Position numbers and translations under genes: made by a program. From a virus, in IMG/VR virus record IMGVR_UViG_3300035183_000460, positions 1-64,000 of that record: DNA of 64,000 nucleotides; one strand, 5' to 3'. Shown here in pieces: positions 561 to 46,103 of the stretch. The notes under the pieces were generated by a model, which did not search any database, was not told the DNA's origin, and was given only the letters and a program-made list of their open reading frames with translations. How positions within the stretch are numbered: position 1 is the first letter of the stretch; every line of letters begins with the position of its first letter.

Positions 561-1349
561 ATGTCAAGTTTAAAATTAAAAGATCGTATAGCTTTATATG
601 AAAATGCAACTGATTATAAATTATTAGGTAGAGTTCCTATAATCATTTGTATTAATGGAAGATCTTTCTCAAAAATTACTTCTATTATTGATAAACCATA
701 TTGTGAAAAATTTGCTGAGTGTATGTACTCTACGGCGCTTAGATTAGCTATGGAAGTAGAAGGTTCAGTATTTTCTTATTGTTTTTGTGATGAAATTGTG
801 ATTGTCGCAAGAAATGATCAGTCAATAGAAACGAATTTTTGGTACGATAATAGAATACAAAAGATATCTTCAGTTACAGCTTCAATTGCTACACTTCATT
901 TTAATAATTGTGCAACGGCTTTAGATTTAAATTTAATTGGAGATGCAGTTTTCATATCAAATACATTTGTTGTACCAAACATAACTGAAGCAATTAATGT
1001 TATTGTTTCAAAACAACAATTATCTTTTCAAAAGTCTTTACATTTTGCATGTCTTTATGAGTTATTAAAAAAACAATATGATAAAAATGACATTAAAGAG
1101 ATGATTCAAGGTACATCATCAGATGACAAAATAAATCTATTGCAACAAGAATGTAATATAGATTACAATAATTACCCTATAGCATATAGAAGAGGTATTG
1201 CATGTTATCGTCAGCCAAAATTAATTGATGGAAAATTAAAACATAAATGGTCAATTAATATGGAAATTCCTATATTTACGAAAGAACAATCATTTTTATT
1301 TAATATATTTCATGGTGGAACCGATATTATTCGTTATAATAATTTTTGA
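561..1349 (+). CDS. Thg1-like tRNA 5'-end (3'-5') polymerase family protein
   Basis: Thg1 and Thg1-like proteins add nucleotides in the 3'-5' direction to tRNA 5' ends (tRNA-His guanylation or 5'-end repair). The fold signatures are visible: PIIICINGRSF (residues 26-36) matches the family's IDGRxF motif, FCDEIVIV (75-82) matches the SDE motif, and NRIQKISSVTASIATLHFN (97-115) matches the conserved helix after it. The C-terminal half has the YRRG element. Oddity: the first metal-binding aspartate is Asn32 here, while Asp77 and Glu78 are kept. Length (262) is normal for the family. It sits 64 bases after the IS copy, with a tmRNA gene 0.5 kb downstream. The family call is firm; activity is uncertain. 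Confidence 0.85.
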   Translation: MSSLKLKDRIALYENATDYKLLGRVPIIICINGRSFSKITSIIDKPYCEKFAECMYSTALRLAMEVEGSVFSYCFCDEIVIVARNDQSIETNFWYDNRIQKISSVTASIATLHFNNCATALDLNLIGDAVFISNTFVVPNITEAINVIVSKQQLSFQKSLHFACLYELLKKQYDKNDIKEMIQGTSSDDKINLLQQECNIDYNNYPIAYRRGIACYRQPKLIDGKLKHKWSINMEIPIFTKEQSFLFNIFHGGTDIIRYNNF

Positions 1350-1653: not shown

Positions 1654-1884
1654 ATGCAGAGAACTAGCGGAGAAATTGAAAAGAAAAATATAAATGGATC
1701 GCATTACGCATGCGTTCATTGTGGATACAGAGATCATGCCGATGTGAATTCTGCAAAGAATATCCGCAATAACTTTATCTCTGTTGCTGCGGAAACGCAG
1801 AAGGCAGAGCAGGCTGTGTGTCAATCAGCCAAATGTCTCGGAGATCCAGAGACAAGCCACCAGCCTTGTGCTGGTGGTAATTGA
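1654..1884 (+). pseudogene. tnpB: tnpB C-terminal remnant
   Basis: From GEIEKKN onward this is nearly identical to the tnpB tail at 283-496: half of the zinc ribbon (CVHCG), DHADVNSAKNI and the same SHQPCAGGN end over the hairpin. Everything upstream, including the first zinc-ribbon cysteine pair and the RuvC-II glutamate, is gone. Not a functional nuclease; it could still contribute guide-RNA scaffold sequence. Confidence 0.8.
1857..1877. repeat. IS right-end hairpin, copy 2
   Basis: Arms CCACCAGC/GCTGGTGG, loop CTTGT, followed by TAATTGAC (1878-1885). Identical to 469-497. Confidence 0.9.
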
Positions 1885-1892
1885 CAAAACAT

Positions 1893-2245
1893 GGGGATGA
1901 AATAGGTTCGACTAGGTATGAAACATTTAAAATGCAGGTTCTGGATGATTGCAACCAGATAAAAAGCAATCAAAACGTTAAATGCCAACGATAATGGTAT
2001 TTCTCAATTAGCATTAGCTGCTTAATTGAGTGTTTTTAGACGAGATTTCTTTGGTACTCTAAAAGCATTAACCCACTAAAGATAGCAATTAATCGTTCTA
2101 CGGATAAAATTGCGAAATAAACAGTAGATAGCTGATTAGGCGAATCTAATCGAATGTTGCTACTACATTAAGCTAGCTAAGCCTGTGAAAGAATTTTAAT
2201 GTGGATTATTTAGGACCCGCCTGGCAGAGGGCGGCATCTCCACCA
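1893..2245 (+). ncRNA. ssrA: tmRNA (transfer-messenger RNA), complete, with encoded CCA
   Basis: The 5' end GGGGATG pairs with CATCTCC (2235-2241) in a full 7-bp acceptor stem including one G-U pair, followed by ACCA. The D-loop-like AGGTTCGACTAGG follows the 5' strand as in bacterial tmRNA. A tag reading frame (1984-2025) ends in LALAA and stops with TAA. The T-arm stem is CCGCC/GGCGG (2217-2221 with 2230-2234), but the loop is TGGCAGAG: eight bases and no TTC-type core. tmRNA rescues stalled ribosomes together with SmpB and tags the product for ClpXP-type proteases. No promoter is obvious in the 7 bases between it and the IS relic, so it is probably processed from a longer transcript. No tRNA gene was seen in the window. 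Confidence 0.93.
1984..2025 (+). other. tmRNA proteolysis-tag reading frame
   Basis: Resume codon GCC at 1984, then a tag reading ANDNGISQLALAA and TAA at 2023-2025. The AND start and LAA end match bacterial tags (compare the AND...ALAA form); the C-terminal LAA is the degron read by ClpX and similar unfoldases. The resume codon is inferred from alignment with the usual tag start. Confidence 0.88.
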
Positions 2246-12516: not shown

Positions 12517-13104
12517 TTGAATACATTTATATTAGAAGATAATAAAGATGTTATTATTAATGTATTTGAGAAATTGTCAAATGACAGAATATTATTCATA
12601 TCAGATTTCATAGACGACAATTTATCTTCATATATTGTAGCGTCTTTATTGTTAAAGAATTCCGAGGATTCTACAAGCAAAATATCTATTGTTATAAATT
12701 CTGAAGGTGGAGACATTAGAAATGTATTTATGATTTATGATATTATGAAAATGATTGACGCACCAATAGAAACTATATGTATAGGATGCGCAATGAATGA
12801 ATCGGTAATTTTATTAGCTTCTGGAACTCCTGGCATGAGATATGCAACAAAAAATTCTGTAATTTGTCCTAGCCAATTGATTCATGATAAATCTTATTAT
12901 TCAGATTTAACTGACGCTAAAACTACATTAGATCAGGTTAAAGATGATAATGATAAAAAAATGGAAATTTTGGCAAAATGTACTGGAAAAACATTTAAAC
13001 GTGTAATGCATGATTTTAATAGAAAAAAATTTATGACTCCAAAACAAGCTAAAGATTATGGAATTATAGATGGAATTGTTAATTACAACCATAAAAAATT
13101 ATGA
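12517..13104 (+). CDS. ClpP-like protein with altered catalytic residues
   Basis: Full-length ClpP fold: INSEGGDIRNVFMIYDIM is the oxyanion/processing segment, CIGCAMNESVILLASGTPG the nucleophile region, and FMTPKQAKDYGIIDGI the C-terminal motif. The serine position is Asn94 and the histidine position reads ICPS (Ser119), while Asp166 is kept. The enzyme should therefore be proteolytically dead. It starts at TTG 12517, supported by AAGGAG 8-9 bases upstream. It lies 40 bases before an intact ClpP (13145). Mixed active/inactive rings exist elsewhere (ClpP/ClpR in cyanobacteria and plastids), so a heteromeric ring is the leading idea. Confidence 0.82.
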   Translation: MNTFILEDNKDVIINVFEKLSNDRILFISDFIDDNLSSYIVASLLLKNSEDSTSKISIVINSEGGDIRNVFMIYDIMKMIDAPIETICIGCAMNESVILLASGTPGMRYATKNSVICPSQLIHDKSYYSDLTDAKTTLDQVKDDNDKKMEILAKCTGKTFKRVMHDFNRKKFMTPKQAKDYGIIDGIVNYNHKKL

Positions 13105-13144: not shown

Positions 13145-13744
13145 ATGAAAAATAAATTATATGAAGAAAATAGCGTAGAAAATGTAACAGCGAATTATGC
13201 TGATTTTATACAATCTGTATACATTACGCTATCTAAAAATAGAATAATATTTTTGAATGAAAAAATTACTAAAACAACTGCATCTGAAATGTGCGCTCTG
13301 TTATTATATTATGATAATCAAAATTCAGAAAAGGATATTGAAATTTATATTAATACTGATGGAGGTGATTCTTTAGCTTTATCACATATATATGATATAA
13401 TGCAAACTATTAAATCCCCTATTAAAACAATTTGTATAGGTAAAGCGTATTCTGCTGGCGCTATATTGTTAGCATCCGGCTCTCCTGGTAAAAGATGTAT
13501 TTTAAAACATGCAAAAGTTATGATTCATGGTATTCAGTGCGCTTTTCCTGTTATCGGAGATGTTGATCAGGAAGGATCACAAAATTATTTTAATTTTTTG
13601 AATTCTCATAACAATTCTATTATGAAAATTATTTCTAAACATACAGGACAACCTATTTCAAAGGTTATTAAAGATTGTAAAAGAGATGTATTTATGGATG
13701 CGAAAGAGGCTTTGTCGTATGGTTTAGTTGATTATATAATATAA
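13145..13744 (+). CDS. clpP: ClpP-family serine protease, apparently active
   Basis: INTDGGDSLALSHIYDIM, then CIGKAYSAGAILLASGSPGKR with Ser103, VMIHG with His128, and KDCKRDVFMDAKEALSYGLVDYI with Asp177: the complete Ser-His-Asp set in the ClpP context. Length (199) is normal. ClpP rings degrade unfolded proteins fed by a ClpX/ClpA-type unfoldase; none of those is in this window, so the host's unfoldase or a phage gene elsewhere would be needed. The phage's own tmRNA tag ends in LAA, a ClpXP degron. Possible other roles are capsid protein processing or removal of host factors. Confidence 0.88.
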   Translation: MKNKLYEENSVENVTANYADFIQSVYITLSKNRIIFLNEKITKTTASEMCALLLYYDNQNSEKDIEIYINTDGGDSLALSHIYDIMQTIKSPIKTICIGKAYSAGAILLASGSPGKRCILKHAKVMIHGIQCAFPVIGDVDQEGSQNYFNFLNSHNNSIMKIISKHTGQPISKVIKDCKRDVFMDAKEALSYGLVDYII

Positions 13745-24741: not shown

Positions 24742-25260
24742 ATGATTATAACTAATAATGAAGAAGCACTAAGAGTAAAATGTTACAATGCTTCTCAAGA
24801 TGAAGTTGGTCATATAATTTCTTTATTGGAACAAGAATTACGCGAAAGTAATAGGCTTGGTAAATTTGGTATTGGTTTAGCTGCCCCGCAAATTGGAATA
24901 AATAAAAATGTTGCTATTGTTAGAATAGATAACAATTATCATGTTAATTTAGTAAATTGTAAAATACAAAAATCATTTGATCCAACTATTTTCAGAAATG
25001 AGGGCTGTTTATCTTTTCCTGGTAGAGTAGAAGACACAATGAGATATCAGGAAATATATGTAACAGATAATTTAGTATATCCACACTCTTTCATTGTAAC
25101 TGGATTAATGGCTGTTGTATGTCAACATGAAATTGGTCATTGGAATCAGGATTTATTTTTTGATCATATGATTGAAAAGCCAAACAATAAGAAAGTAAAA
25201 CCAAATGATCCATGTATTTGTGGGAAACCTAAAAAATATAAAAAATGTTGTGGTAAATAA
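24742..25260 (+). CDS. def: Peptide deformylase with C-terminal SEC-C motif
   Basis: All three deformylase motifs are present: GIGLAAPQIG (residues 43-52), EGCLSFPG with metal-binding Cys89, and QHEIGHWNQDLFFDH with His129, Glu130 and His133. The third motif reads HEIGH instead of the usual HExDH. The enzyme removes the formyl group from nascent proteins at the ribosome exit. After residue 150 comes NDPCICGKPKKYKKCCGK, a SEC-C zinc motif (CxC-x8-CC) like the one at the end of SecA and some other proteins. Phage deformylases are known, but a SEC-C fusion is unusual. See also bS21 and trigger factor. Confidence 0.92.
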   Translation: MIITNNEEALRVKCYNASQDEVGHIISLLEQELRESNRLGKFGIGLAAPQIGINKNVAIVRIDNNYHVNLVNCKIQKSFDPTIFRNEGCLSFPGRVEDTMRYQEIYVTDNLVYPHSFIVTGLMAVVCQHEIGHWNQDLFFDHMIEKPNNKKVKPNDPCICGKPKKYKKCCGK

Positions 25261-33438: not shown

Positions 33439-34683
33439 ATGCAAATAGAAGTTGATGAATTAGAATATTGTAAATTATCTGTAAATTATGAATCTTCTAC
33501 AGAAGAAATTGATAATAAACGAGAGGAAATTCTTTCAATTTTTAAGAAAGCGCCCGTACCTGGATTTAGACCAGGTAAGGCTAATATGGAAGCTATTAAA
33601 TTATATTATAAGTCTCAAATAAATGAATCCTTGAAAAGGGCGTTGGCAGAAGAAGCTTTTCATAATACTTTATTTGAAAAAAATATAAAGCCATTAGGAA
33701 GTCCAACATTTACTAATATGTTGTTAAAGGATGGCAAATTTATTTGTAATTTTATATTGAATGTTAAGCCAAAATTTGAATTGTTGCAGTATAAGGGGAT
33801 GGAAATTCCAAAACCACACTCTAAAACAATTAATGAAGTTGCTGAAGAAATGTTGCAACAACTTAGAATTAAGTTTGGAACTTCTTCTCCTTATGAAGAA
33901 GATGAATTTGTTATTGAAGGTGATAACATAATTATTAATTATACAGGATTTGTTGATGGAGAAAAATCAGATCAACTTTCTGCAGAAGGAGAATTACTAA
34001 CAGTAGGTTCTAGCGATTTAAAGGAATTTGATAGAAATTTATTAGGTATGAAATTAGGTGAAACTAGAAAATTTTCTATTTTAGTTCCTGAAAATAGTAT
34101 CCCCTCTTTAAGTGGTAAATCAGTTGATTTTGAAGTTACATTAGTTAATGGATCTAAAGTTTCTCCGTGTGCACTAGATGATGAATTAGCTAAAAAATTT
34201 AATAAATCAACTTTTGATGAACTTCATAAAAGTGTATTAGAAGCGGCATCTGTACGTGTAAATACTACTGTTAAAACACATATTTTATCTCAAATATCTA
34301 ATAAATTAATTTCTGAACATGATTTTAAGGTTCCAGATTGGTTGGTTTTATATGAAGCTAAATATTTAGCACAACAATCTAAATTGTCATGGGATTCTTT
34401 ATCGGATAAAGATAAAGAATATTATATGTCACACGCAACATCAAATGTCAAACTTTCTTTAATATTAGATGAAATTAGAGAAAAAGAGAGTGATGCACAA
34501 TTATCTGATCAAGAGGTTTTAGATATGATTAAAGATAATTTATCTAAAACAAATCCAGAAATTTCTACTGATGATGTTATAAAACAGATGTCAACTAACG
34601 GTTATTTACAAGTATTATTTATTAAGATTCGAGATGAATTTGTATTAGATTTTATAGCAAAACATGCTAAAATTATTGAATAA
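33439..34683 (+). CDS. tig: Trigger factor (ribosome-associated chaperone)
   Basis: Full-length layout of ~414 residues against 432 in E. coli. PVPGFRPGKAN (39-49) is the ribosome-docking loop with the GFRxGK signature. Residues ~150-240 form the FKBP-like domain (EGDNIIINYTGFVDGE...LVGSSDLKEFDRNLLGMKLGETRKF), and the C-terminal arm is helical. Trigger factor binds nascent chains at the tunnel exit. A complete phage-encoded trigger factor is unusual; with deformylase it would cover two exit-site functions. GGAAA lies upstream. Confidence 0.93.
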   Translation: MQIEVDELEYCKLSVNYESSTEEIDNKREEILSIFKKAPVPGFRPGKANMEAIKLYYKSQINESLKRALAEEAFHNTLFEKNIKPLGSPTFTNMLLKDGKFICNFILNVKPKFELLQYKGMEIPKPHSKTINEVAEEMLQQLRIKFGTSSPYEEDEFVIEGDNIIINYTGFVDGEKSDQLSAEGELLTVGSSDLKEFDRNLLGMKLGETRKFSILVPENSIPSLSGKSVDFEVTLVNGSKVSPCALDDELAKKFNKSTFDELHKSVLEAASVRVNTTVKTHILSQISNKLISEHDFKVPDWLVLYEAKYLAQQSKLSWDSLSDKDKEYYMSHATSNVKLSLILDEIREKESDAQLSDQEVLDMIKDNLSKTNPEISTDDVIKQMSTNGYLQVLFIKIRDEFVLDFIAKHAKIIE

Positions 34684-44560: not shown

Positions 44561-45124
44561 ATGATAAAAAGAATATTGGGTTTCGATGTATCAAGTACAA
44601 CTATAGGATATTGTACATTGGAATTAGATGAAAAAACAAATAATATTATATTTGTAAATTGTAATTTCATTAAACCAATTAAAAAAGGTTCTATAATTGA
44701 ACGAATAGTAGATACTAGGAATAAATTACAGAAAATTATTGAATCAATAGAGCCTGATTATATTGTAATTGAAGATATTATAAAATTCATGAAAGGTAAT
44801 AGTACTGCTCAAACTATTATAACACTAACTACGTTTAATAGAATGCTTTGTCTGTTGTCTTATGATTATCTAGGTAAATCTCCAAAATTGTTTAATGTTA
44901 TGTCTATTAGACATGGTATAAAAATAGATAAAATTTTGCCAAAAAAAGAACAAATACCAGAACTTGTATCCTATCATTTAGGAATTACATTTCCGTATAA
45001 ATATAATAAATTTGGTAAAATAAAAAATGAAAGCTATGATATGGCTGACGCAATTGCTGTTGCCTTATATTATGCTTTTATTTTATCTAAAAAAATAAAG
45101 GTGAAAAGAAATGAATTTATCTGA
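44561..45124 (+). CDS. RuvC-like Holliday-junction resolvase
   Basis: RILGFDVSSTTIGYC opens the RNase H-like fold with the first Asp; DYIVIEDI gives the catalytic Glu; ESYDMADAIAVALYYA gives the C-terminal Asp pair. This matches RuvC and poxvirus/phage-type resolvases. It would cut branched DNA from recombination or before packaging. Overlaps dnaJ by 14 bases. First gene after the terminator. Confidence 0.85.
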   Translation: MIKRILGFDVSSTTIGYCTLELDEKTNNIIFVNCNFIKPIKKGSIIERIVDTRNKLQKIIESIEPDYIVIEDIIKFMKGNSTAQTIITLTTFNRMLCLLSYDYLGKSPKLFNVMSIRHGIKIDKILPKKEQIPELVSYHLGITFPYKYNKFGKIKNESYDMADAIAVALYYAFILSKKIKVKRNEFI

Positions 45125-46103
45125 AGCTTATAAAACTCTTGGATTATCTAAAGATGCTTCTCCAGAAGAAGCAAAAAAAAGATATAGAGAATTAACTAAA
45201 AAATATCATCCAGATGTAAATAAAGAACCTGATGCTGAAGAAAAATTTAAAAAAATAAATGAAGCTTATGAAATAATTAAATCTGGAAAAGATGATACTG
45301 TTATTGATCCATATGGTCAACGTGCATATCAAGATGTTATTAATATTTCAGATGTTCTTAATATAAACAATATAAGAAGAAAACAATCAAAATCAAAAGG
45401 TGTTAGATATGAAACAGACATATCATTACATACTACAATATCATTTAAGGAATCTGTTTTAGGTTGTAAAAAGAATTTTACTTATAAAAGAAAACTAAAG
45501 TGTGATTTATGTGGTGGTGATGGTTCATCACCAATTCATAATGGATGTACACAATGTAATGGTACCGGATTTATTACATCTATATATGGTAATATGATTA
45601 GTCAATCAACATGTAATAAATGTATGGGAAGACAACAAACTGAGGATTGTAAAAAGTGTAATACTACAGGTTTTTTGGAAGTTGATACATCTATTTCTAT
45701 TTCTATTCCTGCTGGTATTTTGGATGGTCAAATATTAAGATTACGACATATGGGAAATTACGCAGGTTATATAAATAATCTATTTAATGAAACAGATATA
45801 TATACAAATGCAAATTTGTTAGTTAATGTTGAAAAAATATCAGGACTTAGTATTGAAAATGAAGACGTAGTATCAATGATTAACATTTCTCTATTAGAAG
45901 CATTAGAAGGATGCACAAAATCAATTGAAACTATAGACGGCAATGTTGATGTATCAATTCCACAAAAAACTAAAAATAAAGATGAAGTTATATTACCAAA
46001 ATTAGGAGTAAATAGGAAAGGAAATCATCGCGTTATAATAAATATTGAATATCCTTCAAATATAGATAATTTAATTAGTTACTTAAAAAGTGAAACTGTA
46101 TAA
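45111..46103 (+). CDS. dnaJ: DnaJ-family co-chaperone (Hsp40)
   Basis: N-terminal J-domain with YKTLGLSKDASPEEAKKRYRELTKKYHPDVNKE, HPD at residues 33-35, and KFKKINEAYEI. The zinc domain keeps CDLCGGDG, CTQCNGTG, CNKCMGRQ and CKKCNTTG, so two of the four repeats have lost the typical CxxCxGxG form. A C-terminal substrate domain follows; the Gly/Phe linker is short or missing. 330 residues vs 376 in E. coli. It would recruit host DnaK to phage proteins. Confidence 0.92.
   Translation: MNLSEAYKTLGLSKDASPEEAKKRYRELTKKYHPDVNKEPDAEEKFKKINEAYEIIKSGKDDTVIDPYGQRAYQDVINISDVLNINNIRRKQSKSKGVRYETDISLHTTISFKESVLGCKKNFTYKRKLKCDLCGGDGSSPIHNGCTQCNGTGFITSIYGNMISQSTCNKCMGRQQTEDCKKCNTTGFLEVDTSISISIPAGILDGQILRLRHMGNYAGYINNLFNETDIYTNANLLVNVEKISGLSIENEDVVSMINISLLEALEGCTKSIETIDGNVDVSIPQKTKNKDEVILPKLGVNRKGNHRVIINIEYPSNIDNLISYLKSETV

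Follow-up and report, generated by a model that had tools for sequence, protein, structure and literature searches.

Coupled D-loop and T-loop changes in a one-piece phage tmRNA suggest an alternative elbow

When the T-loop of a tmRNA has no UUC core, is the elbow contact with the D-loop lost, or is it made in another way? The question is raised by a gene at positions 1893–2245 (+ strand) of the window, the stretch of 64,000 nucleotides analyzed here, which belongs to a viral IMG/VR record of 112,562 bases (IMGVR_UViG_3300035183_000460). Rfam cmscan places an RF00023 match at exactly these positions (90.4 bits, E 8e-34; gathering score 47), covering model positions 1–374 of 374, and this 353-nt gene is the sole tmRNA of the record. 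The acceptor stem has 7 bp, formed by GGGGAUG (1893–1899) and CAUCUCC (2235–2241), and it contains the alanine identity pair G3-U70; the discriminator A and the encoded CCA complete the 3′ segment (2235–2245). The tag reading frame (1983–2024, +), GCC AAC GAT AAT ... GCT GCT TAA, translates to ANDNGISQLALAA, and its resume codon, hydrophobic-Ala-Ala ending and stop codon are all intact. The full-length match thus confirms the proposal of an earlier note, made from the letters alone, that this is a complete phage tmRNA with a 7-bp acceptor, an encoded CCA and an LAA-ending tag. The covariance-model search suggested there revealed no standard T-arm elsewhere in the molecule.

Other gene forms were considered. 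A permuted gene was rejected because RF04321 reached just 45.7 bits, below the cut-off of 47, and the two-piece form (RF01849) was rejected because the 5′ TLD strand precedes the T-arm, which is the one-piece order. The T-arm is an uninterrupted 18 bases with no group I intron in its loop, and the Rfam scan of the full window returned no intron families. A blastn search against cultured phages gave no real match, and the exact T-arm 14-mer produced 119 chance matches in viral contigs and no other tmRNA. A second contig spanning the exact tmRNA site was not found; a near-identical contig of 34,155 bases has no tmRNA match.

The usual elbow has G18 in contact with U55 and G19 paired with C56, and a U54/A58 pair shapes the loop. 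The T-arm of the window tmRNA (2217–2234, +) reads CCGCC-TGGCAGAG-GGCGG, and the perfect CCGCC/GGCGG stem, the 8-base loop UGGCAGAG and the absence of UUC are all as previously described. When the pentamer U54-U55-C56-R57-A58 is aligned to G54-G55-C56-A57-G58, C56 and R57 stay in place, and the loop is read as U-[GGCAG]-A-G. With TCGAC as the anchor for the D-loop AAATAGGTTCGAC (1900–1912, +), the invariant G19 is preceded by G in the standard form and by A in the window, so that A18 (1904) and G19 (1905) replace the usual G18-G19. From an alignment on the UUCGAC motif, we take these two positions to correspond to G13 and G14 in the tmRNA of E. coli. The window tmRNA therefore has neither the canonical UUCRA T-loop nor the G18-G19 D-loop. 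Both are typical of RF00023, but membership does not depend on them, as tmRNAs of alphaproteobacteria are without them too. The gene does have G55, A18, C56, R57 and G19, the bases that define an A18/G55 elbow class. The earlier note had supposed that the core needed for the elbow contact was missing; this holds for UUC itself, but not for the contact, because C56 and R57 are kept and the change at position 55 is accompanied by replacement of G18 with A18 in every classifiable tmRNA. As judged from the sequence, the elbow is rewired and compensated rather than lost.

We propose that the first elbow contact is formed by A18 and G55, that G19-C56 is retained, and that G54/G58 would take the place of the U54/A58 pair. 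The 18/55 swap alone leaves the 8-base loop unaccounted for. The extra base lies 5′ of the pentamer, both in the window (U-[GGCAG]-AG) and in the relatives L143 (C-[UUCGA]-UA) and L144 (U-[CUCGG]-AU). The first and last bases of the 8-base loops are U/G, A/G, G/A, C/A or U/U and probably form a mismatched sixth pair of the T-stem; in the window tmRNA, the U and the last G would stack in this manner. Its closing pair, C53-G61, also differs from the usual G53-C61. The suggestion that such a loop escapes T-loop modification was correct to the extent that m5U54 and pseudouridine-55 are impossible at those positions: U54 and U55 are absent, and TrmA and TruB are therefore unable to modify positions 54 and 55.

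The compensation between the two loops is strict. G55 occurred with A18 in 47/47 cases and U55 with G18 in 27/27 among a first set of 74 tmRNAs; after 15 more were added, the counts were 54/54 and 35/35, with no exceptions among the 89 classifiable tmRNAs (phage one-piece, viral permuted, alphaproteobacterial two-piece, Symbiobacterium-group and other bacterial). A viral permuted tmRNA (L240) and its copy, with the loop UUCGCC and U18, are assignable to neither elbow state. The set includes UGCRA loops from Caulobacterales, Bosea, two Bacillota-type genomes and some phages, and because these follow the coupling too, it is position 55 that varies with position 18. Fisher tests on the coupling overstate its significance through relatedness, and repeated switching is the better argument. 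A full-text search for literature on tmRNA D-loop/T-loop covariation returned just one unrelated paper.

The wider occurrence of this elbow was followed by scanning viral contigs with the pattern GGAC-N6-GGCRG-N10-CTCCACCA. Many of the 24 stretches returned are tmRNA 3′ ends with the 8-base loops AGGCAGAG, AGGCGGTG, GGGCAGAA or GGGCAGTA, set on fully complementary stems (TCGGG/CCCGA, GTGGG/CCCAC, GGCGG/CCGCC, CTGGG/CCCAG, ACGAG/CTCGT and CGGGG/CCCCG). The loop AGGCAGAG is kept on the TCGGG, GTGGG, GGCGG and CTGGG stems. The CCGCC/GGCGG stem was accordingly rejected as a defining feature, since stems vary freely and the loop core is conserved. The same recurrence bears on a base error at 2217–2234, which is very unlikely because NGGCAGAG reappears on four or more unrelated stems and the D-loop shows the corresponding change; sequencing error as the cause of the odd T-loop is ruled out by recurrence and coupling. 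The initial judgment that this is a real variant and not decay is upheld. By Rfam, the gene order is one-piece in L438, L451 and L454 and permuted in L446, L449, L450, L452, L456 and L457. Permuted (two-piece) genes were noted in viral-classed contigs (L151/L154, L446, L449, L450, L456, L457 and L408), several of them with the 8-base GGCAG loop. A separate observation concerns a viral contig of 106,679 bases (L439): near positions 374–456 it seems to carry a mini tmRNA of some 82 bases that consists of the TLD only, with A18/G55 and a GGCAGTA loop, and that resembles phage DS6A in idea. A tag-motif scan of viral contigs gave mostly chance matches.

The elbow type is not unique to the window tmRNA and is known in part, because it is also the elbow of the alphaproteobacterial two-piece tmRNAs, which combine a GGCRGUA loop with A18; Symbiobacterium-group one-piece tmRNAs combine GGCAGCU with A18. 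Replacement of the T-loop uridines by G has been noted before, as GG in Reclinomonas mitochondria and UG in Caulobacter (PMC1168896). The exact 8-base NGGCAGAG form was found in 0/385 alphaproteobacterial genomes and in 0/150 genomes of the phylum of Symbiobacterium.

Relatives of the window phage, found via terminase and the Thg1-like protein, show that the elbow switches within a single clade of huge phages. Eleven members have U55/G18, and nine, including the window, have G55/A18. Mapped onto a tree of the neighboring Thg1 proteins, the two elbow states require 7 changes, of which well-supported branches force at least 3; both loops were given one state vector, as they never differed, so this analysis counts switches and is not an independent test of the coupling. 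Both loops differ between L143 (UUCGA/G18) and L407 (GGCAG/A18), which are syntenic orthologues. Even where the elbow type is the same, T-arms evolve fast: between the close pair L511 and L515, the differences amount to 9/18 columns of the T-arm, 25/307 of the body and 0/13 of the D-loop. The tRNAs adjoining G55/A18 tmRNAs keep UUC or UUU in 19/20 cases, and therefore the change is largely tmRNA-specific. The exception is the tRNA-Thr of L516 (4106–4182), which carries UGCAA in place of UUCRA in its T-loop.

Taken together, we consider it probable that this is a functional one-piece phage tmRNA with an alternative A18/G55 elbow, serving trans-translation with host SmpB, and that switching most likely fits the host. 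It would be charged with alanine via G3-U70, bind host SmpB and enter stalled ribosomes, where ANDNGISQLALAA would be added to nascent chains for proteolysis; ordinary trans-translation of this kind is its likely function. SmpB was not found in 8 phage records, so host SmpB is probably used; most phage records are fragments, and the gene could therefore sit in the missing parts. SmpB binds the TLD elbow (PMC3968760). The repeated switches in related huge phages always involved both loops and most likely served to fit the elbow type of the host tmRNA machinery, and host matching would be the simplest reason for switching because hosts have both elbow types.

Had the T-loop fold been lost, the gene would encode a tmRNA in decay or of partial function, or a decoy that does no more than occupy SmpB. 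The missing UUC and the C53-G61 closing pair agree with such a loss, and the original promoter may have been lost to the tnpB fragment that adjoins the gene upstream. Decoys consisting of the TLD alone have been described (phage DS6A, PMC11915505), and the mini tmRNA of L439 looks like one with the A18/G55 elbow. However, the other TLD elements, the tag frame and the stop are all intact in the window tmRNA, its tag ends in LAA like active tags, and the loop type with its matching D-loop base is conserved across many unrelated tmRNAs. We regard loss of the fold as very improbable.

The elbow change might instead serve mainly as an escape from recognition of the standard T-loop or the 3′ end of the tmRNA by TrmA/TruB, by homing group I introns or by ssrA-attB integrases. 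All 883 known tmRNA introns lie in the T-loop (PMC11915505), and the T-arms of L511 and L515 change faster than the body, with identical D-loops. Escape alone, though, leaves unexplained both the concerted change of D-loop base and T-loop and the presence of this elbow in cellular alphaproteobacteria, and it is unlikely to be the main cause, if slightly less so than loss of the fold. Acquisition of the T-arm by recombination from the two-piece tmRNA gene of an alphaproteobacterial host would account for the GGCRG core and A18-G19 D-loop common to phage and alphaproteobacterial tmRNAs. Yet a change was needed in both loops, which are encoded at opposite ends of the gene, the phage T-stems (CCGCC, UCCGG, CAGGG and UAGGG) differ from the alphaproteobacterial CCGGG, and the 8-base form is absent from the alphaproteobacterial genomes searched. 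Such an origin seems as improbable as decay. A functional tmRNA with a compensated elbow remains our preferred reading.

The gene lies in a conserved block composed of a Thg1-like 3′-5′ polymerase, tRNA-Thr genes with up to four anticodons, and the tmRNA. The Thg1-like gene of the window (561–1349, +; PF04446 at 65.9 bits, PF14413) is upstream of the tmRNA on the same strand, as it is in G001, G016 and G108. The same arrangement was found at 18/20 further huge-phage loci, some of them duplicates, with tRNA genes between (the linkage loci being the window, L495–L497 and L501–L523). Nearly all of these intervening genes are tRNA-Thr, and the full set UGU, GGU, AGU and CGU is present in several phages (L503, L506, L511, L514 and L515). 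In the window, two 96% identical copies of a tnpB 3′ end, at 281–499 and at 1669–1887 (+), flank the Thg1-like gene, and the second copy ends 5 bases before the tmRNA, at the place of the relatives' tRNA-Thr; Rfam detected no tRNA-Thr remnant in 1300–1892 with E values up to 5. The tnpB relatives were uninformative as a host clue, all being below 60% identity. Thg1 is reported to occur sporadically in jumbo phages, with a role in restoring tRNA 5′ ends (PMC7824862), and the PARIS effector AriB cleaves tRNA-Thr (PMC12409363). No paper on a Thg1-tmRNA link in phages was found in the open-access literature.

The tRNA-Thr set suggests protection against a threat to threonine tRNAs, and the linked block points to a specific threat of this kind during infection. 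It is possible, and we offer this tentatively, that the whole island counters a defense that destroys tRNA-Thr and stalls ribosomes, with the tmRNA elbow toggled between its two compensated states to suit the SmpB or modification enzymes of the host. Near the block, pairs called as tRNA-Pyl with anticodon CUA (L497, 6382–6536; L521, 4404–4558) are possible amber suppressors. Directly downstream of the window tmRNA, a small protein (2442–2936) has a weak DarG-like (macrodomain) match (E 7e-4). The window phage also encodes ClpP (12517–13104) and trigger factor (33439–34683), according to Pfam, and by sequence a second ClpP-like protein (13145–13744), a peptide deformylase-like protein (24742–25260) and a DnaJ-like protein (45111–46103). 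These proteins fit tag-directed proteolysis and nascent-chain handling.

ARAGORN found no tmRNA in the window, and it detected 0/19 one-piece A18/G55 tmRNAs compared with 8/12 of the standard type. Surveys of phages and bacteria that depend on this program therefore undercount tmRNAs; a huge-phage survey relied on ARAGORN for these genes (PMC7162821). The perfect 18/55 coupling provides comparative evidence for the D-loop/T-loop contact in tmRNA, which can rarely be tested by covariation because it is otherwise almost invariant. The natural switches between relatives are ready-made pairs for probing the role of the elbow in SmpB binding. We consider four points to be new: an 18/55 compensation that holds strictly across lineages, the occurrence of this compensation together with 8-base loops in phage tmRNAs of the one-piece form, the repeated concerted switching of both loops, and the ARAGORN blind spot.

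Standard one-piece tmRNAs are exemplified by E. coli SsrA and by the tmRNAs of phage Bxz1 and Bacillus phage G. The window tmRNA resembles the standard RF00023 form in its gene order, G3-U70 acceptor, encoded CCA, tag frame and full-length covariance match. It departs from that form in having GGCAG instead of UUCRA, A18 instead of G18, an 8-base loop and C53-G61, and in being missed by ARAGORN. With the alphaproteobacterial two-piece tmRNA (RF01849) it shares the GGCRG T-loop core and the A18-G19 D-loop; however, the window gene is one-piece in the standard order, whereas the alphaproteobacterial loops have 7 bases (GGCRGUA) and mostly sit on CCGGG/CCCGG stems. The Symbiobacterium-group tmRNAs (L484–L486) are, like that of the window, one-piece, with a GGCAG core, A18 and a T-stem starting CCGCC/GGCGG. 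In these, a sixth G-C pair closes the 7-base GGCAGCU loop, while the window has U and G at that place, with no Watson–Crick pair. The viral tmRNAs L446, L450 and L456, which carry the AGGCAGAG loop, share the 8-base NGGCAGAG loop and A18 of the window, and the D-loop and acceptor of L450 are the same as those of the window. Their genes are permuted, and that of the window is not.
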